53,468 nucleotides of DNA from Chitinophaga pinensis (GTDB lineage Bacteria; Bacteroidota; Bacteroidia; 2-12-FULL-35-15), in NCBI GenBank assembly GCA_945865315.1, contig CAMBDK010000006.1, forward strand, positions 1 to 53,468, read 5' to 3'. The stretch's first letter is position 1; each line of letters opens with the position of its first letter. The notes beneath the pieces are model-generated. The model ran no database searches. It saw only the letters and a list, made by a program, of their open reading frames with translations, and was not told the origin of the DNA. Position numbers and translations under genes: made by a program. Below are positions 3,501 through 50,700 of the stretch, in pieces.

Positions 3501-6500
3501 TAAGCCAGTTACATTATAGGTGGTTACATTACCAACATTCAAATTATTGTACGCCCCAACAAAACTACCAAATGAAGCATCTGTTGAAACATCTAAAAAA
3601 TAATTTATCGCACCAGTTACTGCAGACCAGTTCGTATTCATTGAAGTACAAGTAACATTGGTAGCGGCAGTTGCAACAGGCGCAGCAGGGGCGTTTGTAC
3701 TTGCTGTAATACTGTTCGAATTTGGACTTGTAACACAAGCGTTCTGTGAACGCACGCGATAATAATAATTTGTATTTACAGTTAAGCCTGTTACATTATA
3801 GGTTAATACATTCCCAACTGAAATAGGAGAGCCAGGAAGAAGTGTTGCGAAAGAGATACTTGTAGAAACATCTAAAAAGTAATTTATAGCACCTGTTACA
3901 GCACCCCAGTTTGCGTTAAGCACCGTACACGCAACACCGGTAGCTGCAAATGCAACAGGAGCAGTAATGAGCGAAGGATTAACAGTTATGAAATTAGAAT
4001 TTCCACCGGAAGCGCAACCACTGGCGGCACGTACCCTATAAAAAACGGTAATGCCGGTTAAACCAGTTACATTAAAGGTAGTTACGTTGCCTGCGTTAAA
4101 ATTGTTATACCCTGTAACAAAAGTAGTGAATGTGGCATCGGTAGCAACATCCAAAAAGTAGGTTATTGCACCTGTGGATGCGGTCCAATTTGCATTCATA
4201 GATGTACAGGTAACATTGCTTGCAGCAGTTGCCACAGGAGCAGCAGGTGCATTAGTACTTGCTGTTATGGTAGTGGAATTCGAGCTCGTGGTACACCCAC
4301 TCACTGCCCGTATGCGGTAATAATAAGTGGTGTTCACAGTTAAACCCGTTACATTATAAGTGTTTACATTGCCTACATTCAAATTGTTATAGCCGGCAAC
4401 AAATGTGGCGAACGAAGCACTCGTAGAAACATCTAAAGCGTAGGACACCGCGCCTGATACAGCACCCCAGTTGGCATTAAAAACGGTACAAGCAATATCC
4501 GTGGCTGCAAATGCTACAGGGGCGGTGATGGCTGAAGTTTGAACCGTTATAAAATTGGAATTGACGCTTGCACTGCAACCATTAGCAGCACGTACCCGGT
4601 AATAATAGGCAACTCCTGCAGTTAAGCCCGTTACATTATAGGTTGATACATCATTTACATTCAAATTATTGAAACCTGTTACAAAAGTAGTGAATGAAGC
4701 GTCAGTAGCAACATCTAAAAAATAAGTTATTGCTCCTATTGATACCGACCAGTTGGCATTTATGGATGTACAAACAACATTGGAAGGAGATAATGCTATC
4801 GGAGAACTTGGAGAAGCAATAGTAACATTAATAGTATTAGAATTTGAACTGACAGTACACGCATTACCTGCCCGCACACGGTAATAATAAGTGCTACCCT
4901 GAGTTAAACCTGTTATATTATAAGTTGTTGCATTGTTTACATTCAAGTTACTATAACCTGGTAAAAACGTAGAAAATAAAGGACCTGTAGAAACATCTAA
5001 GAAATACTGTGTTGCACCTATTACCGCGCCCCAATTAGCATTCATAGATGTACAGGTAAAATTATTAGGAGCAATTGCTATAGGAGCAAAAGGGCCGGAA
5101 GTAATAACCATAACCGTATTGGAATTTAAACTGGTACTGCAACCATTGCTTACGCGTAAACGATAATAATAAGTGGTGTTTACTGTTAAACCGGTTACAT
5201 TATAGGTAGTTACGTTACCTACATTCAGGTTATTATAACCTGTTACAAACGTAGTAAATGAGGCATCAGTAGCGACATCTAAAAAATAAGTGATTGCACC
5301 TGCTACTGCACCCCAGTTGGCATTCAAGGAAATACAGGCCAAGTTGGAAGCACCCGCCGCTGTGGGAGAAATTGGAGCAGAAGTACTAACCGTGATGGTA
5401 TTGGAATTTAAACTAGTGGCACAGCCATTCACAGCACGTATCCTATAATAGTAAGTAGTGTTTACTGTCAATCCCGTTATATTCAGGGTGGTTACATTGT
5501 TTACATTCAGGTTATTATAACCCGTTACAAACGCAGAGAATGCGGCGTCGGTAGCAACATCTAAAAAATATGCGGTAGCGCCTGCAACTGCACCCCAGTT
5601 GGTATTCATTGAGGTACAGGTAAAGTTGGAAGCAGCTAATGCTGTAGGAGCAATTGGAGCAGAAGTAGTAACCGTTATGGTATTGGAATTTAAACTGGTG
5701 GCACAGCCATTCACTGCACGCACACGGTAAAAGTAAGTGGTGCCTGTTGTTAAACCAGTTACGTTAGTAGTGGTGGTATTACCAACACCCAGATTATTGT
5801 AACCAGTTATAAACGCGGAGAATGCGGCATCAGTAGCAACATCTAAAAAATAGGTAGTTGCACCTGCAACTCCAACCCAGTTGGCGTTCAGGGAAGTACA
5901 GGTGAAGTTGGAAGCACCTGTTGCTGTAGGGGCAATAGGCGCAGAAGTACTTACCGTTATGGTATTGGAATTTAAACTGGTATTACAGCCATTACTTGCA
6001 CGTACCCGATAATAATAGATAGTGTTTATGGTTAATCCTGTTACATTATTGGTGGTTACATTACCTACATTCAGGTTATTGTAACCCGCAACAAAAGTAG
6101 CGAATGTAGCGCTGGTAGAAATATCTAAAAAGTAAGTGGTAGCGCCTATAGAAACTCCCCAATTTGCGTTGATGGAACTACAGGTAAAGTTAGAAGCGTC
6201 AATTGCCACAGGAGCAAGAGGTGAGGTAGTGGTAATGTTAATAGAATTGGAATTTAAACTGGTGCTACAACCGTTACTTGCACGTAATCTGAAATAATAA
6301 GTCGTATTTACAGTCAAACCCGTTACATTATAAGTGGTTACATTTCCTACATTCAGATTATTGTAACCCGTTACAAGTGAAGCGAAAGAGGCATCAGTAG
6401 CGACATCCAGGAAGTAGGCGGTTGCACCTCCAGCTGCCGACCAATTCGCATTCAGAGATGTACAAGTAATGTTGGAAGCATCAACTGCCACAGGGGCAAG

Positions 6501-9500
6501 AGGAGCGGTAGTAATAACCGTAATCGTATTGGAATTTAAACTGGTACTACAGCCATTGCCGGAACGTATGCGGTAATAATAAGTGGTATTTATAATCAAT
6601 CCCGTTACATTGTAGGTGGTTACATTGCTTACATTCAGATTGCTGTAACCTGTTACAAAGGTAGTGAAAGCGGCATCGGTAGCGACATCTAAAAAGAAGG
6701 AAGTAGCACCCGCAACCGCACCCCAATTGGCATTTAGTGAAGTACAGGTAAAGTTGGAGGCTGCTAAGGCAGTTGGAGCAATAGGGGCTGTTGTACCGGT
6801 AGTTATTGTATTGGAATTTAAACTGGTACTGCAACCATTGCTTGCTCGTATACGATAATAATAAGTAGTGTTAGCTATTAAACTGGTGATATTATAAGTA
6901 GTTACGCTGCCCACGTTCAAGTTGCTGTATCCGGTAACGAATGCAGTGAATGCAGCATCCGTAGCCACGTCTAAGAAATACTGTGATGCGCCTGAAACAG
7001 CACCCCAGTTGGCATTCATAGAAGTACAGGTAAAATTATCGGCAGCCGTGGCGGTTGGTGAAACCGGGGCTGTTGTACCAATAGTTATTGTATTGGAATT
7101 TAAACTGGTACTACAACCATTGCTCGCCCTTATGCGGTAATGGTAGGTAGTATTGGCTGTTAAACCGGTGATATTATAAGTAGTTACGCTGCCCACGTTC
7201 AAGTTGCTGTATCCTGTAACGAATGCAGTGAATGCAGCATCCGTAGCCACGTCTAAGAAATACTGTGTTGCGCCTGAAACAGCACCCCAGTTCGCATTCA
7301 TGGAAGTACAAGTAAAATTGGAGGCTGCTACCGCAGTTGGAGCAACAGGGGCCGTAGTGCCAATGGTTATTGTATTGGAATTTAAACTGGTACTGCAGCC
7401 ATTGCCGGCACGTATCCTATAATGGTAGGTAGTATTGGCTGTTAAACCGGTAATATTATAAGTAGTTACGCTGCCCACGTTCAAGTTGTTGTATCCGGTA
7501 ACGAATGCAGTGAATGCAGCATCCGTAGCCACGTCTAGGAAATACTGTGTTGCGCCTGAAACAGCACCCCAGTTGGCATTCATCGAAGTACAGGTAAAGT
7601 TGGAGGCCGCTACCGCAGTTGGAGCAATAGGGGCCGTAGTACCAATAGTTATGGTATTGGAATTTAAACTGGTACTGCAACCATTGTCGGCACGTATCCT
7701 ATAATGGTAGGTAGTATTTGCTGTTAAGCCGGTTACGTTATAAGTAGTTACGTTGCTTACGTTCAAGTTGCTATAACCAGGAACAAAAGTTGTAAATGCA
7801 GCATCAGTAGCTACATCTAAGAAATACTGAGTAGCACCTGAAACAGCACCCCAGTTCGCATTCAAGGAAGTACAGGTAAAGTTAGAAGCAGATGATGCTG
7901 CAGGGGCAACTGGAGCTGTAGTTCCAATAGTAATTGTATTGGAGTTCAAACTGGTAGAACAACCATTGTCGGCACGCACACGGTAATGATAAGTAGTATT
8001 TGCTGTTAAGCCGGTTACGTTATAAGTGGTAACGTTACCTACGTTTAAGTTACTATAACTAGGAACAAAAGTTGTAAATGCAGCATCCGTAGCCACGTCT
8101 AGGAAATACTGTGTGGCGCCTGAAACCGCACCCCAGTTCGCATTCATGGAAGTACAGGTAAAGTTAGAAGCAGATGATGCTGCAGGGGCAACTGGAGCAG
8201 TAGTTCCAATAGTAATTGTATTGGAGTTCAAACTGGTAGAACAACCATTGTCGGCACGCACACGGTAATGATAAATAGTATTTGCTGTTAAGGCGGTTAC
8301 GTTATAAGTGGTAACGTTACCTACGTTTAAGTTACTATAACCAGGAACAAATGTCGAAAATGTAGCACTTGTTGATACATCTAAGAAATACTGAGTAGTA
8401 CCTGAAACAGCACCCCAGTTCGCATTCAAGGAAGTACAGGTAAAGTTAGAGGCTGATACTGCTGTTGGAGCAATTGGAGCAGTAGTTCCAATAGTAATTG
8501 TATTGGAGTTCAAACTGGTAGAGCAACCATTATCAGCACGTACACGGTAATGATACGTAGTATTTGCTGTTAAGCCGGTTACGTTATAAGTGGTTACGTT
8601 ACCTACGTTTAAGTCATTATAACCTGTAACAAATACAGTAAACGCAGCATCAGTGGCAACATCTAATAAATAGGCGGTAGCACCTGAAACAGCGCCCCAG
8701 TTCGCATTCAAGGAAGTACATGTAAAGTTAGAAGCGGATGATGCTGCAGGAGCAATTGGAGCAGTAGTTCCAATAGTAATTGTATTGGAGTTCAAACTGG
8801 TAGAGCAACCATTATCGGCACGTACACGGTAATGATAAGTAGTATTTGCTGTTAAACCGGTTACGTTATAAGTGGTTACATTACCTACGTTTAAATTGCT
8901 ATAACCAGGAACAAATGTCGAAAATGTAGCACTTGTTGATACATCTAAAAAATAGAAGGAAGCACCTGAAACAGCTCCCCAATTAGCGTTCAAAGAAGTA
9001 CAGGTAAAGTTATCTGCTTGTGTTGCTGTTGGAGATACCGGTGCGCTTGTTGCAACAGTTATTGTATTCGAATTCAAACTTACTAAACATCCATTATCAG
9101 CACGAACACGATAGAAATAAGAAGTATTCGGTGTTAAAGCTGTTATATTATAAGTAGTTACGTTACCTGCGTTCAAGTTACTATAACCGGCAACAAACGT
9201 GGTAAATGAAGCATCAGTAGCTACATCTAAAAAATAAATAGTTGCACCTGAAACAGCACCCCAATTTGCATTCATTGAAGTACAGGTAAAATTCGAAGCT
9301 GCAGTTGCTGTAGGAGAAATTGGAGCAGTAGTACCAACGCTAATGGTATTGGAATTTAAACTGGTAGAGCAACCATTGTCGGCACGTACACGGTAATGAT
9401 AAGTGGTATTAGACAACAAGCCTGTGATATTATAGGTAGTTACGTTTCCAACATTTAAATTACTGTAGCCTGTTACAAAACCAGTGAACGAAGCATCAGT

Positions 9501-12500
9501 AGCTACATCCAGGAAGTAAGTGATAGCTGCTGAAACAGCTCCCCAATTCGCGTTCATTGAAGTACATGTAAAGTTGGAAGCAGATGTAGCAGTAGGAGAA
9601 ATTGGAGGTGATGTAGCAACTGTTATTGTATTCGAATTTAAACTCACCAAACACCCATTATCGGCACGTAAACGGTAATAATAAGTGGTATTTGCAGTTA
9701 ATCCAGTTACGTTATAAGTGGTTACGTTACCTACGTTCAAGTTATTGTATCCAGGAACAAACGTGATAAAAGATGCGTTAGTAGCTACATCCAAAAAGTA
9801 TAAAGTCGCACTAGAAACCGCACCCCAATTAGCATTGAGGGAAGTACAGGTAAAGTTATCAGCAGATGTTGCTGTTGGAGAAATTGGAGGAGTAGTACCA
9901 ATACTAATAGTATTTGAATTTAAACTGGTACTACAGCCATTGTCGGCACGAACGCGGTAATGATAAATGGTATTAGGAATAAGACTAGTTATATTATAAG
10001 TAGTTACGTTACCAACATTTAAATTTGAATAACCCGGTAAAAGTGCGGTGAATGATGCATCTGTAGCAACGTCTAAAAAGTAAGAGATTGCACCTGAAAC
10101 AGCTCCCCAGTTTGCATTCATCGAAGTACAAGTAAAATTGGATGCAGAAGTTGCCGTAGGAGAAATTGGTGGAATAGTACCAACAGTAACAGTATTAGAA
10201 TTTAAACTGGTGCTACAGCCATTGTCGGCGCGCACACGGTAATGATAAACAGTATTTGCAGTTAAACTAGTTACGTTATAAGTGGTTACGTTTCCAACGT
10301 TCAAGTTGCTATATCCAGCAACAAACGTAGTAAAAGAAGCATCTGTTGCAACATCTAAAAAATAAGCGGTGGTACCTGCAACAGCCCCCCAATTTGCATT
10401 TAAAGAAGTACAAGTGAAATTGGAAGCCGAAGTTGCTGTTGGAGAAATTGGAGCTGTAGTACCAATACTGATTGTATTTGAATTTAAACTGGCACTACAA
10501 CCATTGTCGGCGCGAACACGGTAATGGTAAGTAGTATTAGCAATTAAACCTGTAACATTATAAGTAGTTACGTTACCTACATTGATATTACTATAAGATG
10601 GTAAAATTGAAGTAAAAGAAGCATCTGTAGCAACATCCAAAAAGTATGCAGTAGCACCTGGAACGGCCCCCCAATTTGCATTCAAGGAAGTACAGGTAAA
10701 GTTGGATGCTGCTGTTGCAGTAGGGGAAATTGGAGCAGTAGTCCCTATACTTATTGTATTGGAATTTAAACTAGTACTACAACCATTGTCTGCACGAACA
10801 CGGTAATGGTAAGTAGTATTTGCTACCAGGCCCGTTACGTTATAAGTGGTAGTATTACTTACGTTTAAATTACTATAACCAGCAACGAATGCAGTAAAAG
10901 AAGCGTCAGTAGCAACATCTAAATAATAAATTGAGGCACCAGCAACTGCCCCCCAGTTTGCATTCAATGAGGTACAAGTAAAGTTAGATGCAGCTGTTGC
11001 AGTAGGGGAAATTGGAGCCGTAGTTCCAATGCTTATTGTATTGGAATTTAAACTTATGCTACAACCATTGTCTGCACGAAGGCGGTAATAATAAGTAGTA
11101 TTTGCAATTAAGGTAGTAATATTATAAGTAGTAACGTTACCAACGTTCAAATCGTTATACCCAGTTACGAATGTTGTAAATGCAGCATCAGTGGCAACAT
11201 CTAAATAATAGATGGTTCCGCCTGGAACTGCTCCCCAGTTTGCATTCATGGAGGTACAGGTAAAGTTGGATGCCGGTGTTGCTGTAGGAGAAATCGGAGC
11301 GGTTGTTCCAATGCTTATGGTATTTGAATTTAAACTGATACTACAACCATTATCAGCACGCACACGGTAATAATAGTCTGTGTTAGCTACTAAGGTTGTA
11401 ATATTATAAGTAGTTACGTTTCCAACATTCAAATTGCTGTAACCGGTAACAAATGCTGTAAATGAAGCGTCAGTAGCAACATCTAAGAAATAGGCGATTC
11501 CACCTGTTACAGCCCCCCAATTAGCGTTCATGGAAGTACAGGTAAAGTTGGAAGCAGATGTTGCTGTAGGAGATACAGGAGCAGTTGTTCCAATAGATAT
11601 AGTATTGGAATTTAAACTGGTGCTACAACCATTATTTGCACGGATGCGGTAATAATAAGTGGTATTTGCCGTTAAGCCCGTAATATTATAAGTTGTAACA
11701 TCGCCAGTGATCAAGTTATTATATCCTGCAACAAATGTGGTAAACGAAGCATCCGTAGCCACATCCAGAAAATATCCGGTAGCGCCTGAAACAGCTCCCC
11801 AGTTTACATTCATAGAAGTACAGGTAAAGTTAGAGGCAGCAGTTGCAGTAGGAGCAATAGGAGCAGTTGTACTGGCGGAAATGGTATTAGAATACAAACT
11901 GATGTCGCAGCCATTACCTGCACGTACCCGGTAATAATAGGTGATGTTGGCGGTTAAGCCTATAACATTATAGCTGGTTACGTTACTAACATTCTCATTA
12001 TCATAACCAGAAATAAAAGTACCTGGACTAAATAATACACTCGTAGAAACATCTAAATAATAAGAGGTTGCACCTGAAGCTGCTCCCCAATTTGCATTAA
12101 ATGATATACATGTAAAATTGGAAGGGGCTGTTGCTGTTGGAGAAACGGGGGCTGTAGTACTAACTATAATGGTATTAGAAGATAAACTTGTATCGCAACC
12201 ATTTATTGAACGCACCTTATAATAATAAGTAATACTTGGAGTCAACCCTGTAATTCCTACGTTTGAAAAGTTACCAACCTGCAAACTGCTATAGATGCCT
12301 ACAGGTAAAGTAAATGCAGGATCAGTAGCCACGTCTAACAAATAGGTAGTAGCTCCAGGAGTAGCACCCCAGTTAGCGTTAAAAGAAGTACATGTAAAAT
12401 CAGAAGCAGGCAATGCAACAGGGGCAAAGGAAGCTGTAGAAAGTCTTATAGCCAAACAGTTAGTGTCACTAACTTCACAACTATTAGAAGCTGTTACACA

Positions 12501-13016
12501 AACATTTCCATCTAAAGTTCCAAAATTAACAATGATGCTTGTAGTTCCTTGTCCGGAAGCGATCGTTGACCCAGTTGGCACAGACCAGTTATAGCCAGTA
12601 GCGCCCGAGATTGCCTGGATGGAATAAGCGATACCGATAGCGTTTTTACATGCATCAGGAATACCAGAGATAGGACCGGATATATTAAGACCATCTAAAG
12701 AAAGCCAGACAATTCCATTAAAATAATTAAAAACATTACAATCGGTATTATAAATTAATAAGCCCGTTGCCGGTAAAACAATAGCGTCGCGCTGAACAAG
12801 AGTAAGGCGAGGAACCAATAGTCCTTTATCATTAGCTGTTAAATCGAGCAATGAAGTAGGGGCCGGAACTAAAACACCTATACCTACGTTGTTCTGAGCC
12901 ATGGTGTAATTTGAAAGCAAACAATTTAGAGCTACAAAAAAAGTAAACATTGCAAAAGAAAAACGCAAGGATGACATTTTTTTCACTAATGGCTTAATAA
13001 TGTTTTTTGATTTCAT
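579..13016 (-). CDS. Giant surface protein with 42 FN3-like repeats (4145 aa)
   Basis: Signal peptide at about residues 1-41 (ends NYTMAQ). A tail-fibre-like N-terminal domain follows at about 42-106 (NNVGIGVLVPAPTSLLDL ... GLLVPRLTLVQRDA ... FNYFNGIVWLSL), paralogous to that of the neighbouring collagen-like protein, and then one Ig/PKD-like domain at about 107-195. The rest is 42 tandem fibronectin-III-like repeats of about 94 residues with the consensus NFTCTSxNANWGAVSGA, YFLDVATDASF, GYNNLNVGN, TYYYRVRADNGCS. Nearly every repeat keeps two Cys, one in FTC and one in NGC, which could form an intradomain disulfide. The protein stops within the last repeat (SLTTTP) and has no type A or type B T9SS sorting domain, so its export route is not obvious. 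It follows the OmpA/PD40 gene by 58 bp. A structural adhesin or cell-surface filament is inferred from architecture only. Confidence 0.9.
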   Translation of the reverse strand: MKSKNIIKPLVKKMSSLRFSFAMFTFFVALNCLLSNYTMAQNNVGIGVLVPAPTSLLDLTANDKGLLVPRLTLVQRDAIVLPATGLLIYNTDCNVFNYFNGIVWLSLDGLNISGPISGIPDACKNAIGIAYSIQAISGATGYNWSVPTGSTIASGQGTTSIIVNFGTLDGNVCVTASNSCEVSDTNCLAIRLSTASFAPVALPASDFTCTSFNANWGATPGATTYLLDVATDPAFTLPVGIYSSLQVGNFSNVGITGLTPSITYYYKVRSINGCDTSLSSNTIIVSTTAPVSPTATAPSNFTCISFNANWGAASGATSYYLDVSTSVLFSPGTFISGYDNENVSNVTSYNVIGLTANITYYYRVRAGNGCDISLYSNTISASTTAPIAPTATAASNFTCTSMNVNWGAVSGATGYFLDVATDASFTTFVAGYNNLITGDVTTYNITGLTANTTYYYRIRANNGCSTSLNSNTISIGTTAPVSPTATSASNFTCTSMNANWGAVTGGIAYFLDVATDASFTAFVTGYSNLNVGNVTTYNITTLVANTDYYYRVRADNGCSISLNSNTISIGTTAPISPTATPASNFTCTSMNANWGAVPGGTIYYLDVATDAAFTTFVTGYNDLNVGNVTTYNITTLIANTTYYYRLRADNGCSISLNSNTISIGTTAPISPTATAASNFTCTSLNANWGAVAGASIYYLDVATDASFTAFVAGYSNLNVSNTTTYNVTGLVANTTYHYRVRADNGCSTSLNSNTISIGTTAPISPTATAASNFTCTSLNANWGAVPGATAYFLDVATDASFTSILPSYSNINVGNVTTYNVTGLIANTTYHYRVRADNGCSASLNSNTISIGTTAPISPTATSASNFTCTSLNANWGAVAGTTAYFLDVATDASFTTFVAGYSNLNVGNVTTYNVTSLTANTVYHYRVRADNGCSTSLNSNTVTVGTIPPISPTATSASNFTCTSMNANWGAVSGAISYFLDVATDASFTALLPGYSNLNVGNVTTYNITSLIPNTIYHYRVRADNGCSTSLNSNTISIGTTPPISPTATSADNFTCTSLNANWGAVSSATLYFLDVATNASFITFVPGYNNLNVGNVTTYNVTGLTANTTYYYRLRADNGCLVSLNSNTITVATSPPISPTATSASNFTCTSMNANWGAVSAAITYFLDVATDASFTGFVTGYSNLNVGNVTTYNITGLLSNTTYHYRVRADNGCSTSLNSNTISVGTTAPISPTATAASNFTCTSMNANWGAVSGATIYFLDVATDASFTTFVAGYSNLNAGNVTTYNITALTPNTSYFYRVRADNGCLVSLNSNTITVATSAPVSPTATQADNFTCTSLNANWGAVSGASFYFLDVSTSATFSTFVPGYSNLNVGNVTTYNVTGLTANTTYHYRVRADNGCSTSLNSNTITIGTTAPIAPAASSASNFTCTSLNANWGAVSGATAYLLDVATDAAFTVFVTGYNDLNVGNVTTYNVTGLTANTTYHYRVRADNGCSTSLNSNTITIGTTAPIAPTAVSASNFTCTSLNANWGAVSGTTQYFLDVSTSATFSTFVPGYSNLNVGNVTTYNVTALTANTIYHYRVRADNGCSTSLNSNTITIGTTAPVAPAASSASNFTCTSMNANWGAVSGATQYFLDVATDAAFTTFVPSYSNLNVGNVTTYNVTGLTANTTYHYRVRADNGCSTSLNSNTITIGTTAPVAPAASSASNFTCTSLNANWGAVSGATQYFLDVATDAAFTTFVPGYSNLNVSNVTTYNVTGLTANTTYHYRIRADNGCSTSLNSNTITIGTTAPIAPTAVAASNFTCTSMNANWGAVSGATQYFLDVATDAAFTAFVTGYNNLNVGSVTTYNITGLTANTTYHYRIRAGNGCSTSLNSNTITIGTTAPVAPTAVAASNFTCTSMNANWGAVSGATQYFLDVATDAAFTAFVTGYSNLNVGSVTTYNITGLTANTTYHYRIRASNGCSTSLNSNTITIGTTAPVSPTATAADNFTCTSMNANWGAVSGASQYFLDVATDAAFTAFVTGYSNLNVGSVTTYNITSLIANTTYYYRIRASNGCSTSLNSNTITTGTTAPIAPTALAASNFTCTSLNANWGAVAGATSFFLDVATDAAFTTFVTGYSNLNVSNVTTYNVTGLIINTTYYYRIRSGNGCSTSLNSNTITVITTAPLAPVAVDASNITCTSLNANWSAAGGATAYFLDVATDASFASLVTGYNNLNVGNVTTYNVTGLTVNTTYYFRLRASNGCSTSLNSNSINITTTSPLAPVAIDASNFTCSSINANWGVSIGATTYFLDISTSATFATFVAGYNNLNVGNVTTNNVTGLTINTIYYYRVRASNGCNTSLNSNTITVSTSAPIAPTATGASNFTCTSLNANWVGVAGATTYFLDVATDAAFSAFITGYNNLGVGNTTTTNVTGLTTGTTYFYRVRAVNGCATSLNSNTITVTTSAPIAPTALAASNFTCTSMNTNWGAVAGATAYFLDVATDAAFSAFVTGYNNLNVNNVTTLNITGLTVNTTYYYRIRAVNGCATSLNSNTITVSTSAPISPTAAGASNLACISLNANWGAVAGAITYFLDVATDASFTTFVTGYNNLNVGNVTTYNVTGLTVNTTYYYRLRVSNGCSTSLNSNTVMVITSGPFAPIAIAPNNFTCTSMNANWGAVIGATQYFLDVSTGPLFSTFLPGYSNLNVNNATTYNITGLTQGSTYYYRVRAGNACTVSSNSNTINVTIASPSSPIALSPSNVVCTSINANWSVSIGAITYFLDVATDASFTTFVTGFNNLNVNDVSTYNVTGLTAGVAYYYRVRAANGCSASVNSNFITVQTSAITAPVAFAATDIACTVFNANWGAVSGAVSYALDVSTSASFATFVAGYNNLNVGNVNTYNVTGLTVNTTYYYRIRAVSGCTTSSNSTTITASTNAPAAPVATAASNVTCTSMNANWTASTGAITYFLDVATDATFTTFVTGYNNFNAGNVTTFNVTGLTGITVFYRVRAASGCASGGNSNFITVNPSLITAPVAFAATGVACTVLNANWGAVTGAINYFLDVSTSISFATLLPGSPISVGNVLTYNVTGLTVNTNYYYRVRSQNACVTSPNSNSITASTNAPAAPVATAATNVTCTSMNTNWSAVTGAINYFLDVSTDASFGSFVGAYNNLNVGNVTTYNVTGLPGTTVYYRVRAASGCASGNNSNFIMVNPSAITAPVAFAASGVACTVFNANWAAVTGAVNYFLDVSTSISFATLLPGSPISVGNVLTYNVTGLTVNTNYYYRVRSQNACVTSPNSNSITASTNAPAAPVATAATNVTCVSMNTNWSAVSGAITYFLDVSTNASFSSFVGAYSNFNVGNVTTYNVTGLPGITVYYRVRAASGCASGSNSNFIMVNPSAIAAPVAFAASGVACTVFNANWAAVTGAVNYFLDVSTSISFATLLPGSPISVGNVLTYNVTGLTVNTNYYYRVRAQNACVTSTNSNSITASTNAPAAPIALEETNISCTSMNCNWSAVSGAITYYLDISTVASFATFITGYNNLDVGNVTTYNATGLPGSVRYYRVRAASGCASGGNSNFIVADPSILVAPVATNATSITCTNMNANWQAAAGAIAYEIDVSTSSSFATIMAGYPLNVGNVLSYNITGLTINTFYYYRIRAVNACVTSTNSITITASTFAPNAPAASAATNLTCSDFNANWSAVSGAIGYNIDLSTDPAFGSFVGIYNNLNVGNTTSYNLISLSASTIYYYRIRARNGCSTSGYSNIVTAITTAPAITSSNTVTGFTCTSFVASWAAVSNATSYAIDVSNVSNFATFITGYNNLNVGNVTSISVTGLSSGIIYYYRVRTINNCGTSGNSNVVSFIIAAPTIPVPTSSSISCSPAAFSACWSLSAGATNYFLDISTNASFTTFVSGYNNLSLGNVQCFSVSTNIFSGNNYYYRVRSANSCGSSGNSNNVFVTTSIPGIPSVTDVPLTEISCTSFLALWGNNGSAGTTTYFLDVSTSSSFGTGTFVGVFNDFNAGGQTSFNVTSLTAGLTYYYRVRSSNGCGTSLSSNTITVNTAAPVAPVATAASSLASNSFTANWNAAPNTTTYYLDVATDGIFSNFVTLHNNKNVGNVYSISVSGLTPFTTYRYRVRAANSCNTSVNSNPISLTTTP
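582..12422 (-). repeat. Tandem array of 42 coding repeats, unit about 282 bp
   Basis: This is the DNA counterpart of the FN3-like repeats. The unit is about 282 bp (94 codons). Neighbouring units around 6.9-9.0 kb are nearly identical at the nucleotide level, while units at both ends (582-2300 and above about 11.9 kb) have diverged. Units are in frame throughout and no repeat is interrupted by a stop. The array is a likely site of copy-number change by unequal crossing-over or slippage, and of assembly collapse in short-read data. Confidence 0.92.
2300..4530 (-). repeat. Higher-order dimer repeat (4 x about 556 bp) inside the FN3 array
   Basis: Repeats 29 to 36, counting from the N-terminus, alternate between two subtypes. 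Subtype A has ITAPVAFAASGVACT, LLPGSPISVGNVLTYN and RSQNACVTSPNSN. Subtype B has PAAPVATAATNVTCTSM, TGLPGTTVYYRVR and ASGCASGNNSNF. The A-B pair of about 185 codons occurs four times, and the later pairs are almost identical, including at silent positions. The unit of recent duplication here was therefore a dimer, unlike the single-unit expansion in the middle of the array. Confidence 0.82.
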
Positions 13017-42021: not shown

Positions 42022-42071
42022 TTTGTGGTTTCCTTTAACAATAAATAGTTATTTAAAAATAGATTATACTA

Positions 42072-42232
42072 AGGCTCTGTTAAGAAATAACTGATACATT
42101 TTGTCTTATTATTTTGCTCTTTTTCTGCGTTGTAAAATCGTTAAATAGCTAAAGCTATTCGCCTCATTTGCGCCTTGAAAAAGAACAAAATAACTTCGCC
42201 AATTCTGCACCATTTATTTCTTAACAGAGCCT
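42072..42232. repeat. 161-bp palindromic repeat, copy 1
   Basis: Perfect 19-bp terminal inverted repeats, AGGCTCTGTTAAGAAATAA at 42072-42090 and its reverse complement at 42214-42232. An imperfect inner palindrome is centred on AATAGCTAAAGCTATT, with outer segments that also pair (CTCTTTTTC / GAAAAAGAAC). It has no coding capacity and no clear target-site duplication. The right end lies 3 bp past the stop codon of the cytochrome/propeller gene. The reverse complement aligns without gaps to copy 2 at 47602-47762 at about 86 percent identity by my hand count. It could be a MITE-like non-autonomous element or a structured intergenic repeat. Confidence 0.88.
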
Positions 42233-42235
42233 AAA

Positions 42236-43702
42236 TTAATTGGAAATGCCTAGCCCATATGGATCTACGGAAACTTCGGCTTTAAATCCAGAAATAGGTA
42301 ATAGCGTATGCATATCAATTGCTGTTACATAACCATTTCTACCAAAACAAACGGAAGAGTGGTGGGGTGCAGGGCCACTTGTGTTTATATTTCTGTTAGC
42401 AATATAAACACGTTGATATTCCTCGTCTACAACTATTCCATGAGGTTGATAAACAGCATAAATTTGCTTAATTAATGTATTGTCATTATAATTAATTATT
42501 GAAACACTCCCTCTCTCTGAATTGTTTGAAGAGCTATTCTCCTCCATGCAACTTACAAACAAATATGGCATTGTAGATGAAATGCCCATTTCTTGAGGAT
42601 ATTGCCCTGTGGCTAATGTCGCAATCAAGCTATCGTTGGAGGTTTTAAAAATCCTTATTTCGTTGCTTTTTTGACAGGTTATAAAATACTTTGACCCATC
42701 CGGAGAAAAAATTATTTCATGAGGGTCTAATGATGTTGTATTGTTTGGAGGCAGCCCATTTAATGAAATCAATTGTAGTTCAGAAAAATTATTCACTGGA
42801 ATTTTATAAAGATAATTTCCTAATTGTGAAGTTACATATAAGGTATCATCACTTGCATTTAAAGCAGAGCCATGTGGATAACTAAATCCTGAATAAACAA
42901 TTGCTGTCATATCCTCCAAATTTACAACAGCTACCTTACCGGCACTACTCCAATCTATAACATAAGCAACTTTTGAGTCTTTTGAAATTGCAAAAGTGTT
43001 CCAAGAGCCAAAACCAAGTAAAACCTGACCCATAAGTGAATTGTCAATAGTGCTAAATTTTTGAAAATATGTACCGGCAATAAAAGAAACGCACCAAAAC
43101 TGATTGTTAAAAGCTACTTTTACCATGTGTGGGGCTTCAATAGAAGGGCTTGCTCCTACATCCACATAACGCATCGCTAACTTTGATTCAGAATCAATAA
43201 GTGTAACAACATCGCAACCTTGATTGGTTAAGTATACTGTTTTACGATTTACGGTGTCAGGAAACTTTATGTCCCCTTGTGAATTAGGTGCGCCATTTTT
43301 TACCCATTCATATAATATCTTCATCTCCTCCTTGGTCAAGGCTTCTTTTCCAATTGGCATTTTTGGACTTAAATGTATTGCGCCAAATTCATTGTAAGAG
43401 TTGGTATAATAAATCAATGTGCTAAAATCTGGTTGATATGGAATAACTATTGCCCCTGAGCGACTTCCCTCAAATAATTGATTCCAGCTTTCGAGAGACA
43501 ATCCCGCAACGGCTACTTTACTCTTTTCATTGTGGCAGCCGCTTGTGGCACATTTGTTTTCTATAATTTTCCCTACCGCTTGCGGATACCCGTTACCTTC
43601 GTAATAAGGGTCTGCTTTTTCATAAGAACATGCGCTAATAAAAATTAGCAAAAAATAAATATAAAAAAAAGTGTTGCGTTTTGAGTCTATTGAATTTAAC
43701 AT
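42236..43702 (-). CDS. Lipoprotein with cytochrome-c-like domain and YncE-like beta-propeller
   Basis: 488 aa. Lipobox FISACSYEK (Cys25). Residues about 40-140 are cytochrome-like: a haem-type motif CATSGCH (Cys51, Cys56, His57; four residues between the Cys instead of two) and a downstream Met ligand in SPKMPIG (Met115) with LTKEEMKILYEWVKNGAPN, as in planctomycete-type cytochrome c domains. Residues about 150-488 form a seven-bladed propeller of the YncE/lactonase kind (VYLTNQGCDVVTLIDSES; VAYVIDWSSAGKVAVVNL; DPHEIIFSPDGSKYFITCQK; QRVYIANRN). It follows the type B PKD gene by 12 bp, so the two should be co-expressed. The role may be electron transfer or ligand binding at the surface; I cannot say which. 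Confidence 0.82.
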   Translation of the reverse strand: MLNSIDSKRNTFFYIYFLLIFISACSYEKADPYYEGNGYPQAVGKIIENKCATSGCHNEKSKVAVAGLSLESWNQLFEGSRSGAIVIPYQPDFSTLIYYTNSYNEFGAIHLSPKMPIGKEALTKEEMKILYEWVKNGAPNSQGDIKFPDTVNRKTVYLTNQGCDVVTLIDSESKLAMRYVDVGASPSIEAPHMVKVAFNNQFWCVSFIAGTYFQKFSTIDNSLMGQVLLGFGSWNTFAISKDSKVAYVIDWSSAGKVAVVNLEDMTAIVYSGFSYPHGSALNASDDTLYVTSQLGNYLYKIPVNNFSELQLISLNGLPPNNTTSLDPHEIIFSPDGSKYFITCQKSNEIRIFKTSNDSLIATLATGQYPQEMGISSTMPYLFVSCMEENSSSNNSERGSVSIINYNDNTLIKQIYAVYQPHGIVVDEEYQRVYIANRNINTSGPAPHHSSVCFGRNGYVTAIDMHTLLPISGFKAEVSVDPYGLGISN

Positions 43703-43714
43703 AAAATTACCCCT

Positions 43715-46700
43715 TTAAAATTCATTATTTAGTAATACAAATGAACCAATTTTTTCATACTTTTCTAAAGGAATAGATTTTTTCGAATATAGAATACGAT
43801 AGGAATAAACGCCATCAGGAACAAGCTTGTCTTGCACCTTTCCATCCCAGCCATCATTGATATCTACGGATTTAAAAAGGACCTCTCCCCAACGATTAAA
43901 AACATACATTTTAAACCCTGTTAATCCATTTCCTCGAGCTAAAAATACATCGTTAACATTATCTCCGTTAGGAGTAAATGCCGCCGGTACATAAATTGAT
44001 TCAAAATCATTCACAGTAACTTTCAGCAACATGCTATCTAAACAATCGGGCCCATATATCGCATAAAGCATTACGTTATAAACGCCTGGATTTGAATATA
44101 CCACTTTAGCATTTACGTTAATGGAATCAAACGAACCATTGCCAAAGTTCCAAAGCCATTCATTGTAGTTTACACTCTGGTTTTCAAATAATACTTCGGT
44201 ACCAGCATGGATATTTTCTAGGGTGCTAATTTGGAAAAGGGCGTCTGGTCTCAAATTTACATTTACTGCTGCTAAAATGGTAGTATCGTCCTTGCAACCC
44301 AAAGCGTTTTCAACTGATAAGGAGACGTTATATACCCCCTGTGTGGAATAAACATGCATTGGCGGTGCTGCTCCCAAAAATGAGCTACCATCACCAAAAT
44401 TCCAGTTCCACTGAATAGCATTATTTGAAATATCTGTAAATACAACAGTTCCGCCACTACAAATAGTAGCGGCACTTTGTGAAAAAGAGGCTTTGGGCGC
44501 AGGAAGAACAATTACTGTGCTGGTAGCAATATCAGAGCATCCATCTATTGAATTTACCGTAAGTGTTATAGGGTATGTTCCTGGAGCAGCGTATTTGTGG
44601 AAAGGGTTTTGTAGGGATGATCCAATAGAACCATCGCCAAAATCCCAAAGCCAGGATGAAGAATTAGGAGAAATATCAAAAAAATTCTGCGTTAGGGGGA
44701 AACAAATCGTGTCGTTTATAAATGATATGTTTGCCGCAGGCACAACAAAAACTGAAATAATATTCGGACTAACAAGGGTATCAGAATAGATAGCGTTTCC
44801 TGCTATAAGCGTAACGGTATAATAACCTGGTGTGACATAAATATGTGTGGGGTTTTGTAAGGAAGAGGGTGCACTACCATCACCAAAATCCCATTGCCAC
44901 CATGTGGCCGCCCCAATGCTTGTATCTGTAAAAATAACGGATGTGCTGCCACATAGCCTAGTTTGATTATACGTTAATCCTGCATTTACAAAGGGCGCAA
45001 TAACTATATTTAATGTATTTGTGCAAATTCCCAAACAGCCGTTTGTATCTGTAACCGTTAAAGAATAATTATATTGCCCTGTACCTCCATATAAATGAAA
45101 TGGTGCATTAGATGTATCTGTTCCTCCGTCACCAAAATTCCAATTATATAAATAAGGTGATGCACCGCCGGATAGGATGGCACTAAAACCGGTAACGCCT
45201 CCCAAATAATTATTTACAGAACTACATACTACCGAAGGTGGCGAATTTACAGCAATAATAAAAGGCAAAGAGCTTGCTGGAGTATTTAATGGGCATGGGT
45301 AAGAGCTTGTCATGATACAAGTAATTGCATCATTATTATTAAGTGCTGAAGACTGAAAAATATTTGTTGTGCCCCCCGAATTTAAGCCATTTACATTCCA
45401 TTGATAGCTTGGATTATTACCTCCGTTTAATGGGATAGCAAAAAATGTTGCCTGTTCCCCCTCGCAAATTATTGGAGCGGATGCAGAAACATAAACATCT
45501 GTAGGAAGGAAAGGCACAACAGCAACATAAAAGGTGTCTATTTTTGACCAGCCGCAACATGGAGACTTTGTTTTTAGTGTAACCATATATTTTCCAGTGG
45601 TTGTTGGGAAAGAGTAAACAAAACTAGGGCTAGACCCAACTTGATTAGCAATTAAAGAGCCCGGGTTATACATTTTCCATTCGTAATCTAATACAGTAAA
45701 TGAGCTTGGGAATAGGGCAGAATAACTTTCTGTACTGCCCGGACAAACCGTGTCAGAACCACTAATTGAAGGAAGTACTATAGTTCCATCAGAAAAAACA
45801 CCTGTAAAATCAGTAAACATATATGGAACACCATCTACAACAAGTGTTATTGAGTGACGTCCCATAATATCATATTGTGTCATAACGGTATCACCACTTC
45901 CACTAAGAGGAATAGCCCCACCATCAAAAAACCATTGTATGATTCCTGTAGCATTAGTAGTATAATTAACATCAGAAAAAGTACATCCTGAATTTTGAAC
46001 ATAAATAGTAGGTTCAACATTGGCTTTCATATCTGATTGTGCAATTGCAATTCCTGCTGGATCTTCAAAGAGAGGTAAACTTACGCCTGGAATACCGTTG
46101 CCTCCATTGGCGCCCAAACCGCCTGTTCCTCCAGCCCCCCCTTTACCTGCCTTACCTATATCGCAACCAGGGCTGCCAGCTCCGGCTCCAGAACTTCCCC
46201 CGCCAATGCCTCCTGGGGTTCCACCATAGCTGCCGTTGCCTTGCTGTCCCGAATTAAGTAAACAATCTTTCAAGGTTGTATTCACCCCATTGGAATCAAT
46301 ATAAATTGCAAAAGAACCTCCGCCGCCTTTACCTCCTGTTGCTCCAAAACCTCCCTGTCCTCCTTCTCCACCACCTCCTCCTCCCGGACCAGCACCATTA
46401 TTATCTCCAAAACAAGTTGTAATACAGCCCTGTGATCCACCACCACCACCGCCACCACCGCCACCACCATGATTCCCTTGTTGTCCATCCGCTCCGTCAC
46501 CGGGAATAAAGTAATTAGAAAAAACAAAAACACCATTTGCTCCGTTTATACCATCGGCACCATTTATACCATCGGCACCATCGGCGCCATTATTTGCAGG
46601 AGTTTGGTCGCAGCCTATTGAAAAAAAACTTGCGCACAATCCGGCACCGCCAACACCTCCCAAGCCGCCGCCTATGCCTAAACCCATTTGTCCATTTGCT

Positions 46701-47458
46701 GCATTAGGAGCAGTATTGTTTCCCGAACCAAAACATTTCCCTGTCCCTCTAGCTCCACCATTTCCACCAGCACCTCCAAAATTACTTCCAGGATAAGAGC
46801 CCGAACCACCTGTTCCGCCAGCTGTGCAACATCCGCCATCTTCATCTCCAAGCTCGCCAAAAGTGCCATTTGCGCCATTTACTCCATTGGCCCCTGGCAC
46901 ACCATCAATTCCATCAGTACCATTGCCTGAGGTAATTGTTAATCGAGAAAAATTATAAGACATACAGTCGAAAAGATGAATCCCATAAGTTGTTACGCTA
47001 TTAATACTAGGAGTTGCATCACCAACAATTATTGTTAAATCATGTATACTGAAATTACTAATGTTTAAACATTCTACTGCTAAAATTCGATTTGGAAGAG
47101 GATCCGTATTTGTAGAGTCTCTGAAAATAATTGTATGCAGGGAATTTGTTTTTTCCCAGTTGTTTGTTGGGTCAAACCCCCCATCCATAGTTATCCCGCT
47201 AATCATAGAAAGTTCATTTGAAATGCTGTAATCCCCCACAGCAAGCCTTAATTGATTATTAGTAGCGTTAGCAAGTGTAAAGGCATAAGGGAGTGTTGCT
47301 GGGTTTGCTTTGGTGCCAGCTAAACCAGATGATGCACCGGTTGGCGATACGTATATAATATTACATTCCTGAGCAAAGCTTTTTTTTATACTACTACTAA
47401 TAAAAAAAATTGCAAGAGATGCTATAAAAAAAAGGATATTTTTGTAACTAAAAATCAT
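43715..47458 (-). CDS. Beta-helix/polyglycine PKD protein with type B T9SS sorting domain
   Basis: 1247 aa. Signal peptide 1-30 (ends KKSFAQ). A right-handed beta-helix start follows (CNIIYVSPTGASSGLAGTK; TMDGGFDPTNNWEK; NFSIHDLTIIVG). From about 165 to 465 it is glycine-rich (GxxGxx tracts and a run of Gly), broken by beta-helix-like strands such as GGGSFAIYIDSNGVNTTLKD. Five or more PKD domains follow (YNWNFGDGG, WQWDFGDGS, WLWDFGDGS, WNWNFGDGS, WLWNFGNGS). The end is a type B sorting domain (AFTPNGDNVNDVFLARGNG, YVFNRWGEVLFKS, GWDGKVQD). No PorP/SprF gene is adjacent. It is paralogous to the next two genes, which end in type A sorting domains instead. A surface adhesin or stalk is likely. 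Confidence 0.87.
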   Translation of the reverse strand: MIFSYKNILFFIASLAIFFISSSIKKSFAQECNIIYVSPTGASSGLAGTKANPATLPYAFTLANATNNQLRLAVGDYSISNELSMISGITMDGGFDPTNNWEKTNSLHTIIFRDSTNTDPLPNRILAVECLNISNFSIHDLTIIVGDATPSINSVTTYGIHLFDCMSYNFSRLTITSGNGTDGIDGVPGANGVNGANGTFGELGDEDGGCCTAGGTGGSGSYPGSNFGGAGGNGGARGTGKCFGSGNNTAPNAANGQMGLGIGGGLGGVGGAGLCASFFSIGCDQTPANNGADGADGINGADGINGANGVFVFSNYFIPGDGADGQQGNHGGGGGGGGGGGSQGCITTCFGDNNGAGPGGGGGGEGGQGGFGATGGKGGGGSFAIYIDSNGVNTTLKDCLLNSGQQGNGSYGGTPGGIGGGSSGAGAGSPGCDIGKAGKGGAGGTGGLGANGGNGIPGVSLPLFEDPAGIAIAQSDMKANVEPTIYVQNSGCTFSDVNYTTNATGIIQWFFDGGAIPLSGSGDTVMTQYDIMGRHSITLVVDGVPYMFTDFTGVFSDGTIVLPSISGSDTVCPGSTESYSALFPSSFTVLDYEWKMYNPGSLIANQVGSSPSFVYSFPTTTGKYMVTLKTKSPCCGWSKIDTFYVAVVPFLPTDVYVSASAPIICEGEQATFFAIPLNGGNNPSYQWNVNGLNSGGTTNIFQSSALNNNDAITCIMTSSYPCPLNTPASSLPFIIAVNSPPSVVCSSVNNYLGGVTGFSAILSGGASPYLYNWNFGDGGTDTSNAPFHLYGGTGQYNYSLTVTDTNGCLGICTNTLNIVIAPFVNAGLTYNQTRLCGSTSVIFTDTSIGAATWWQWDFGDGSAPSSLQNPTHIYVTPGYYTVTLIAGNAIYSDTLVSPNIISVFVVPAANISFINDTICFPLTQNFFDISPNSSSWLWDFGDGSIGSSLQNPFHKYAAPGTYPITLTVNSIDGCSDIATSTVIVLPAPKASFSQSAATICSGGTVVFTDISNNAIQWNWNFGDGSSFLGAAPPMHVYSTQGVYNVSLSVENALGCKDDTTILAAVNVNLRPDALFQISTLENIHAGTEVLFENQSVNYNEWLWNFGNGSFDSINVNAKVVYSNPGVYNVMLYAIYGPDCLDSMLLKVTVNDFESIYVPAAFTPNGDNVNDVFLARGNGLTGFKMYVFNRWGEVLFKSVDINDGWDGKVQDKLVPDGVYSYRILYSKKSIPLEKYEKIGSFVLLNNEF

Positions 47459-47601
47459 TAATTTAATTTTAATATTTTATTGCGCATTAACATTATTTAG
47501 TTCTTTTTACTTTTTATAAAATTGAAACAATTTGGATTTACTATTTCTAGATACAAAATAAATAGAAAAAGTTGCATTGCCAATAATTGTGAAAAACCGC
47601 C

Positions 47602-47762
47602 AGGCATTGTAAAGAAATAAAGTATACAGAATTGGCGTAGTAATTTTGTTCTTTTTCAAGGCGTAAATGAGGCGAATAGCCTTAGCTATTTAACGATTTC
47701 ACAACGAAGAAAAAGGGCAAAAGAACAAGCCAAAATGCATAGGTTATTTCTTTACAATGCCT
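47602..47762. repeat. 161-bp palindromic repeat, copy 2 (inverted relative to copy 1)
   Basis: Perfect 19-bp terminal inverted repeats, AGGCATTGTAAAGAAATAA at 47602-47620 and its reverse complement at 47744-47762. Inner segments CAAGGCG, AAATGAGGCGAATAGC and TTAGCTATTTAACG are shared with the reverse complement of copy 1. The arms differ from copy 1 at three of 19 positions, and each change is matched on the opposite arm. It occupies half of the 324-bp gap between two paralogous surface genes. The remaining bases of the gap (47459-47601 and 47763-47782) are AT-rich and show nothing else. Confidence 0.88.
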
Positions 47763-47782
47763 TAGTCAAAATATAAAATTTA

Positions 47783-50700
47783 CTATTCCTGATATATTAA
47801 TTTTGTATAAATCTTCTGACCACCATATTCCAATTCTAAAAGATACATTCCGGGAACTAATTTGTTTTTAAAATTATTTATTTTAATTTGTTGCTCTGCT
47901 TCATTAACTTTTCTCTTCTCGGAAAGTAATTGGATACCCTCTAAATTAAATAAGGCAAGGTTTAAAACACTCTCTTTTTCAGGAGAAATTCCAATATTTA
48001 ACTCGTTAGAAAAGGGATTAGGATAAACGACAATATTTGATTTTGTAAAAAAATAATTTTCTAAACCTACGTTTATTTTTACGAACGATGGTTTTAAAGT
48101 AGTGTCGCTGCAACCATAACTATTGGTAACAATAAGCGAAATATTATAATTTCCATTAGCATCGTAAATATGTATAGGGTTTTGAATGCTATCATTATTA
48201 CTATCGCCAAAATCCCAATACCAATTAATTGCATCTATCGAATTGTCTGCAAAATAAACCGTATCGCCAGATTCTGATGTAAAGCTTTGAAAATTAGCCA
48301 CGGGCTTTGAATAAACATAAACTTGACTTGTCACTACCGAACTGTCTACTCCTGTTGCACCAAAAGCCAAAAGAGTAACAGTAAATATTCCTGGATTTAA
48401 ATAATTATGCGAAGGGTTTTCCAAAACAGAACTTTCTCCATCACCAAAATCCCAATGGTATGTAATTGCAAAATCGCTATTATTAGTAAAGTCTACATGT
48501 AAGGAGGGGCAGCCTATTGTGGTAGAGGCATTAAATGCTGCATTTAATTTAGTAATAATTATTATCGTTCCAGAGCAAAACCCATTACAACCATTGGTAT
48601 CAGTAACATTCACTTGGTAATCGTAAGTGCCAGCTAATTCGTAAATATGTGAAACGGTATCACCTATCCCATAGGTATTATCTCCAAAGCTCCACGAATA
48701 GGAGTATGGGGGCTCTCCTCCTGAAGATATAGAAGATGTAAAAAAAGTTGGTGCGCCAGAAATAATTGAATCGGCTGCGCAACTAACAATTGGTAAATCA
48801 ATCACTTTCACCATTATATAAGTAGTTGTATCTTTTTCTCCTGCCGAGCAACCCAAGGAGGAGGTAACGATACAGGCTACGCTATCAAAATTTAATAATG
48901 TTGACGGTGAAAAAATTGCATAATTTGACCCTTCAAAACTACCATTCACTAACCACTGAAAAGCAGCATTTGGACCTGCATTAAAAACTTCGGCACTAAA
49001 AGTAAATGCTCCTCCCTTGCAAGTTTTATTTGTTGTATTTTCTGACTGTATGAAAATTTCCGGCTGAACAATTCCTTCTACAGTAACTGTAATTGTATCA
49101 GGAAATGATTCCCCGCAGCAATAATCAATTGTTTTTAATACCACCTGATAACTACCTGCTGAATCAAATGTGTAGCTAACGTTTTGCAAACCCGCACCTG
49201 TTATCGTATCTATAATATTATTTCGAATAAAATACCAAACATAATTATCATCTATAACGGAAGAACTAAAAGTATTAGAGCTTCCTTTACAAACATTTGT
49301 ACTTGTAGAAATAATAGTAGGGACTGTACTAATACCACTGTTAAATATTTCAATGAAATCAGTAAATGTGTAGGATATACCATTATTCACCATGGTAAAT
49401 GTTTTTCTCCCTAAAGTAGTATATTTTGTTGTTGCAGATATTCCGCTTCCAGATGCAGGGGTAGCGCCAGCGCCAAAAAACCAAATAACTGTACCCGTTG
49501 CATTAGTAGAAAATGTAACAGGAGCATTTGTGCAACCCGAATATTGAACATAAACGAATGGTTGCTGCAGCGAATAAACATTTTGTTCACTTACAGGTGT
49601 GCCAACACCGTCTTCATAAATAAGAAAACTAACTCCGTCAGAGCCTTTCCCCCCCTCTCCACCATCGCCTCCGTTGCCGCCCCTTCCACCATTTCCTCCT
49701 GCACCAACATAAGTATTCAAAGCCCCTCCTCGCGATCCCCCCAATCCCCCCGCTCCTCCAGTTCCACCCAAACCACCAGTTCCTCCTGTACCAGCAATGC
49801 CTGAAGTAATTTTGGTGTCTTTTATAAATCCATTTGCTCCATTATTATAAATATAAATTGCAAAAGAACCGCCGCCACCACTAGCTCCTGTACCTCCAGT
49901 TCCTGCTTGAGCACCTTCACCGCCGCCACCGCCACCAGCTCCTGTTCCATTTTTATTTGGAGGCAATCCAAAAAGACAATCATATGGAATGCCGCCAATA
50001 GAACCGCCGCCGCCACCACCACCACCGCCATGCCCATTTGTTCCATTTGTTCCATTTATTCCATTTCCAGGAATATAAAAACCGCCAACAAATCCATCAA
50101 GCCCAATCGCACCAATAGTTCCGACTAAACCATCAACACCATCGGTTCCTAAGCCGCCATCATTTAAAGATGTTCTAGGAGGGCTTGTAGGGTATATACA
50201 AGTAACAATTTTTTGACCCCCAGCACCCCCATATCCACCTCCATTTAAGCTAACAGTCCCATTTTGTCCCGGAGAACCATTGGAGGCATAACTTGGGTCG
50301 CCGCAGAGGGAACAGTCGGCTGTACCTCTTTGTCCTCCATCGCCAGCATTTCCCCCGGCATTACTTCCAGGAAATGAGCCCGAAGCACCAAGGCCTCCTA
50401 GCCGAGGTCCTGTATCATTATTCGAACCGTTTTCTCCTACAAAACCTGCCGCCCCTGCCATGCCATTACTTCCATTTGTTCCTCCTGCTCCATTTCCCGC
50501 ATTTCCGGCAATAATTTTACAACGTACTATTTCATATCCCGAGCAAGCTTCCATATATATTACATAAACAGAAATACCTCCACCAAAACCATTTGCAATT
50601 CTAATTGTTAAATCCTGTAAATGAAAATTTGAAATACTGTTACAATACATTGCTACCAATCTGTTCGGACCTGTCTGAGGGTTTGAGTTATCGCGATAAA

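Follow-up and report, generated by a model that had tools for sequence, protein, structure and literature searches.

What the palindromes are

The window, a 53,468-nt stretch of Chitinophaga pinensis contig CAMBDK010000006.1, holds two similar palindromic repeats, which raise the questions of what kind of element they are, how such an element moves, and why its two arms stay matched. Judged from sequence comparisons, the repeats are very probably two copies of a non-autonomous element (MITE) moved in trans by a DDE transposase of the ISAzo13 family (PF07592). An initial sequence-only reading had described two gap-free, 86% identical 161-bp blocks (42072-42232 and 47602-47762), and direct alignment bore this out, with the addition that the copies, whose relative orientation had not been stated, align only after one is reverse-complemented. 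The 19-bp arms likewise differed between copies at three positions and paired perfectly within each copy, as described. The 161-bp block is real; the element proper, however, is 159 bp with an 18-bp terminal inverted repeat (TIR), since the outermost A..T pair is part of the TWA target duplication in nearly every copy. The features are as follows.

42073..42231, + strand: copy 1, a 159-bp palindromic MITE of subfamily A (from sequence match, boundaries and genome scan)
42070..42072, no strand: left target duplication of copy 1, TAA (3 bp)
42073..42090, + strand: left TIR of copy 1, GGCTCTGTTAAGAAATAA
42214..42231, - strand: right TIR of copy 1, the same 18 bp inverted
42232..42234, no strand: right target duplication of copy 1, TAA
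47603..47761, - strand: copy 2, a MITE of subfamily B in the orientation opposite to copy 1, with no intact duplication
47603..47620, + strand: TIR of copy 2, GGCATTGTAAAGAAATAA
47744..47761, - strand: other TIR of copy 2, the same 18 bp inverted
47378..47783, no strand: spacer region of copy 2, 45-195 bp shorter in four element-free congeners

Copy 1 is flanked by TAA on both sides and copy 2 by CCA and TTA, indicating that the left duplication of copy 2 has been lost or changed. The predicted fold of copy 1 had an energy of -50.8 kcal/mol, compared to -23.3 kcal/mol for shuffled sequence (z = -7.7; matched by 0 of 200 shuffles). Elsewhere in the window, a 4145-aa open reading frame occupies 579-13016 (-).

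A repeat family in the genome

A genome-wide covariance-model search, of the kind that had been proposed, located the family at 36 distinct places in the 3.27-Mb genome. The model was made from 21 full-length copies, and the places were counted from a listing in which many appeared on both strands; a search with copy 1 as the query gave 47 matches. The two repeats are thus not alone in their genome, a finding on which the claim of a family depended. Intact copies were mostly 159 bp, lacked a transposase gene, and ended in 18-bp TIRs with 0-4 mismatches in most cases. When copies were aligned together with their flanks, the TAA or TTA duplication was present as identical triplets on both sides of 23 of 29 copies, six of which came from congeners. 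Copies were intergenic, often directly after stop codons, and none of the 22 examined was contained in an open reading frame of at least 100 aa. Being short and gene-less, with TIRs, a target duplication, dispersed copies and empty sites (described below), the element is a MITE.

Variants of the element were also seen. Short internally deleted derivatives of ~45-80 bp kept both ends (L065, at G000:C9:2288-2366; L073, L082, L083, and L085), and some copies carried an extra, GC-richer hairpin segment of ~35-55 bp (CCAGCC...GGCTGG type; L020, L025, L026, L028, L059, and L070), inserted in either arm or in both. The same genome also contains a second repeat of very high frequency (L037-L056), with 248 first-look candidates and 41 scored matches. 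One end of this repeat reads ...CGAAAACTTCACTA, and in seven loci (L006, L009, L011, L014, L016, L017, and L019) this end adjoins the MITE exactly, while in L084 the second repeat is flanked by two MITE-like ends. An effort to delimit the second repeat gave a single instance.

Empty sites and distribution

The sequence-only reading had suggested looking for empty sites in sister strains, and the site of copy 2 was found without the element in five congeners. Copy 2 lies in a spacer between two secreted PKD-domain genes, and no MITE was present in the orthologous spacer of G023, G013, G020, G002 or G045, the last of which also has the flanking PKD gene pair. Relative to the window, the spacer was shorter by 195, 183, 128, and 45 bp in G023, G013, G020, and G002, respectively. 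Since the 45-bp case shows that these spacers vary for other reasons too, the size differences fit an empty site only roughly, and the absence of the element from the orthologous spacers is the firmer fact.

Within the genus, the MITE was present in 5 of 36 genomes. A strict scan of other genomes of the phylum found it in at least 3 of 393, a lower bound because few candidates were scored per genome, and the plasmid and phage collections searched held no copy. When the pattern of terminus plus duplication was run on GTDB genomes, at least 118 loci were obtained, and a matching second end was found for 61 distinct elements among the matches listed. Identical triplets flanked 53 of the 61, although the partner search favored identical triplets and this count is not independent. 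Relatives of 157-161 bp came from several phyla and made up 32 of the 61 elements among the matches listed; the near-fixed length and paired interior persist in Bacteroidota, Chlorobiota, Gammaproteobacteria, Firmicutes, and others. Patchy distribution, together with interior homology in distant phyla, would fit horizontal spread.

Three further observations concern elements with similar ends. L098 (G045:C35, about 278195) has GGGTTTGGGACAAAATAA-type ends and TAA duplications around an element of comparable length with a different-looking interior. L105 (G023:C927) is a ~40-bp element consisting almost only of two ends, GGAGTTGGGACAAAATAA, with flanks TTA and TAA. In a Lachnospiraceae bin, many contig ends fall inside MITE-type elements (GGGACTGTTAAAAAATAACTTTGCATTTTGCG; L137, L147, L148, L163, L186, and L224), suggesting that these repeats break its assembly.

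Covariation between the arms

To the eye, both copies in the window had pointed to matched substitutions in their arms, and at the level of subfamilies this covariation greatly exceeded that in controls made by whole-arm permutation, shuffling, and sliding, both in the TIRs and in the interior. In the set of 21 copies measuring 159 bp, the ends of a given copy differed from each other at 1.6 of 18 positions on average, compared to 4.2 of 18 after arms had been permuted among copies (lowest value in 2000 permutations, 3.1). Over the full hairpin, two-sided changes occurred in 11 of 44 pairs (58 cells vs. 17 in shuffles and no more than 9 in slid controls), and when the ends were left out they occurred in 5 of 28 pairs (18 cells vs. 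5.3). In 24 diverse elements, aligned with MAFFT and with no structure used, 18 of 25 interior pairs were two-sided (79 cells vs. 23.5 in shuffles and no more than 22 in slid controls). Paired changes are therefore found along the whole hairpin, beyond the terminal repeats. Because common descent is retained in these controls, and because the alignments tested also served to predict the structure, we rely on the slid controls and on how many different pairs changed. Compared with a model of sequence alone, structure contributed about 20 to 45 additional bits for the majority of elements in distant phyla; the sequence model still recovered several of these elements over nearly their full length.

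Pairing was kept at one level and lost at another. Among the members of five subfamilies, each with three or four copies, changes at paired positions affected one arm in 17 cases and both arms in 2, whereas comparisons between subfamily consensuses gave 18 one-arm and 91 two-arm changes, counted pairwise and hence not independent. One-arm changes within and two-arm changes between subfamilies indicate that pairing is kept in amplifying lineages and not in each copy. Selection or homogenisation acting on the hairpin or on arm symmetry, as originally proposed, is thus supported for subfamilies and not for single copies; once inserted, copies have arms that mutate independently, which is the behavior that had been named as speaking against the proposal.

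Possible causes of arm symmetry

Taken together, these counts would fit selection through mobility, or correction tied to transposition, and we infer that matched arms are either a condition or a by-product of mobility; steady in-place correction of the arms fits less well. Recognition of the TIRs alone does not explain covariation in the interior of the hairpin, for which hairpin-dependent mobility, arm-to-arm correction, and a folded function are candidate causes.

It is possible, though we consider it the lesser chance, that symmetry stems from the mechanics of DNA, i.e., that intrastrand template switching or hairpin repair copies arm to arm without selection on the fold. Such copying would account for the dominance of two-arm changes between subfamilies, where one-arm intermediates are few, and for covariation that includes interior helices. 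However, the rarity of two-arm changes within subfamilies implies that in-place correction is slow, and non-complementary stretches (for instance, left CTTGTTC vs. right ACTTCG), which correction would erase, persist in distant lineages.

That the hairpin is itself functional, as an RNA or as folded single-stranded DNA, and is selected across phyla while mobility merely spreads it, appears unlikely. Its near-fixed length, the bits gained from structure in most distant-phyla elements, the two-sided changes in most interior pairs, and internal loops with the conserved sequences CGTT and CGCCTTG all agree with such a function. Against it, copies decay like neutral DNA, the family is sparse in the strict scan of the phylum, and a search of Rfam returned no curated family that matches the element. 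Tests for an RNA strand gave no clear signal either. Orientation relative to transcription was even (7 same vs. 8 opposite). An RNA made from one strand should accept G.U mismatches more readily than A.C mismatches. In the unfitted alignment the interior held 16 G.T and 10 A.C cells, a count that leaves out one constant T.G pair and shows no clear excess, and in the model-fitted set there were 63 and 42, where the fitted alignment itself favors G.U. Nothing observed requires an RNA, and the data would be compatible with one that is needed from both strands. A combined possibility, tentative and rather improbable, is that the 159-bp hairpin, whose helices vary but stay paired and which also has an apical stem and two internal loops of conserved sequence, is a folded nucleic acid under selection that is carried across phyla by ISAzo13-type transposition. 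If this were true, either a DNA form would be read by the transposase or a host factor, or an RNA would act for the element or its host.

ISAzo13 transposases as probable partners

Returning to mobilization by an ISAzo13 transposase, the enzyme would recognize 18-bp ends of the form GG(C/G/A)NYTGKNAMRAAATAA, excise or copy the MITE, and place it at a TWA target with duplication of three bases. The element as a whole is an imperfect palindrome of almost constant length; amplifying lineages keep both arms matched over the full hairpin, while inserted single copies decay arm by arm. A transposase gene with matching ends, which the sequence-only reading had hoped to find, was absent from the element's own genome and present elsewhere. 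Among the matches listed from GTDB genomes, three elements longer than 1 kb were closed by MITE-type ends (L155, L162, and L237). Their hosts are a Thermoplasmata archaeon and bins of a Chloroflexi and a Planctomycetota, and each of the three elements encodes PF07592 (E-values 3e-114, 4e-139, and 6e-142, respectively). As the end pattern had itself been used to retrieve these long elements, independent evidence comes only from their PF07592 content.

Within the genus, PF07592 remnants occurred in only G013 and G023 of the 36 genomes, both of which are among the five MITE carriers; for two genomes drawn at random from the 36, the probability that both are carriers is 10/630. In the G023 remnant, the 3' end of the transposase gene runs into GTATCTGTTACGAAATAATATTTACA and then TAA; this end resembles the MITE in pattern and not in sequence, with about 19 of 26 positions agreeing with the closest subfamily when counted by eye. 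Plasmid ISAzo13 elements from Nostoc, Mesorhizobium, and Streptomyces, delimited with no end sequence assumed, also had GG-ends and TTA/TAA duplications. A GG start with a TWA duplication was apparent in 3 of 7 annotated plasmid loci, and the other four had no clear ends. The Nostoc element (L275) ends in GGATTTAAGAAAAAATAA, closely similar to the MITE end, whereas the Mesorhizobium element and Streptomyces L278 share only the GG start and TWA with it. Three-bp duplications are reported for ISAzo13 and also for Zator, its relative in eukaryotes (PMC10045372). Target duplications, together with the termini and the partner transposases, thus identify the family, which the sequence-only reading did not recognize, as an ISAzo13-type MITE. 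In neither the element's own genome nor the 36 genomes of the genus was an intact ISAzo13 element with exact MITE ends found, and no PF07592 gene is left in its own assembly, so the family looks stranded there, or else its source lies in an assembly gap.

Transposases of IS4-, IS5-, and IS1182-like types were also considered as partners in the element's own genome and five congeners, and none had MITE ends. It is very unlikely that the MITE belongs to some other DDE family that makes 3-bp TNA duplications, IS5/IS1031 being the main candidate. GGC... ends and a TWA duplication fit that group in outline, an IS5-like transposase fragment is present in the same genome (L033), and a congener has an IS5-like element with a TAA duplication (L108). 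No IS5-like locus in the six genomes, however, has MITE ends, and the long elements bracketed by such ends, among the matches listed, encode PF07592 without exception. The L108 element (G018:C233) is ~1.3 kb, and its GGG- ends are unlike those of the MITE. Y1 systems are not known to use TIRs with 3-bp target duplications or PF07592 partners. Extragenic palindromes of the REP/BIME type, mobilized by a RAYT (Y1) transposase, which are called to mind by intergenic palindromes in high copy, often directly after stop codons, are therefore scarcely credible here, already being contradicted by the target duplications, and the 159-bp element is much longer than REPs, given as 20-40 bp in PMC3733652.

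Comparison with known systems

MITEs have usually been described one genome at a time, and the common view is that they need little besides their ends. What is unusual for a MITE here is near-fixed length and full-length pairing across phyla, a combination suggesting that spread depends on more than the ends. The contrast between one-arm decay in copies and two-arm change between lineages makes this idea testable. Among the papers searched, none was found to describe an ISAzo13 MITE, and one, a broad survey of insertion sequences, mentions ISAzo13 as well as MITEs; a literature search with the MITE end sequence returned chance matches only.

The repeats share with ISAzo13 insertion sequences ends that start with GG (and in some members finish with RAAATAA) and the 3-bp TWA duplication, and whole ISAzo13 elements can be closed by the MITE end pattern, as noted above. 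Unlike those elements, they are gene-less, 159 bp, and palindromic over their full length. Zator, a group of eukaryotic DNA transposons, has a related transposase and 3-bp duplications (PMC10045372; PMC5718144), and is likened to the present system by published description. Structured repeats on Borrelia plasmids also show compensatory base-pair changes in dispersed inverted repeats (PMC2674063), but their stems are mostly shorter, they reside on plasmids, and they have no tie to a transposase family and target duplications. The repeats also resemble bacterial MITEs that fold into long hairpins, such as Correia/NEMIS and ERIC-type repeats and the QMITEs of Coxiella, which are likewise short, non-coding, intergenic, and present in many copies, with TIRs and duplications, a stable hairpin (PMC10969869), and frequent positions beside stop codons. 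Going by their descriptions, the present family is set apart from these by its ISAzo13 partner, and it further differs in its near-fixed length, interior homology across phyla, and arm covariation over the whole element.
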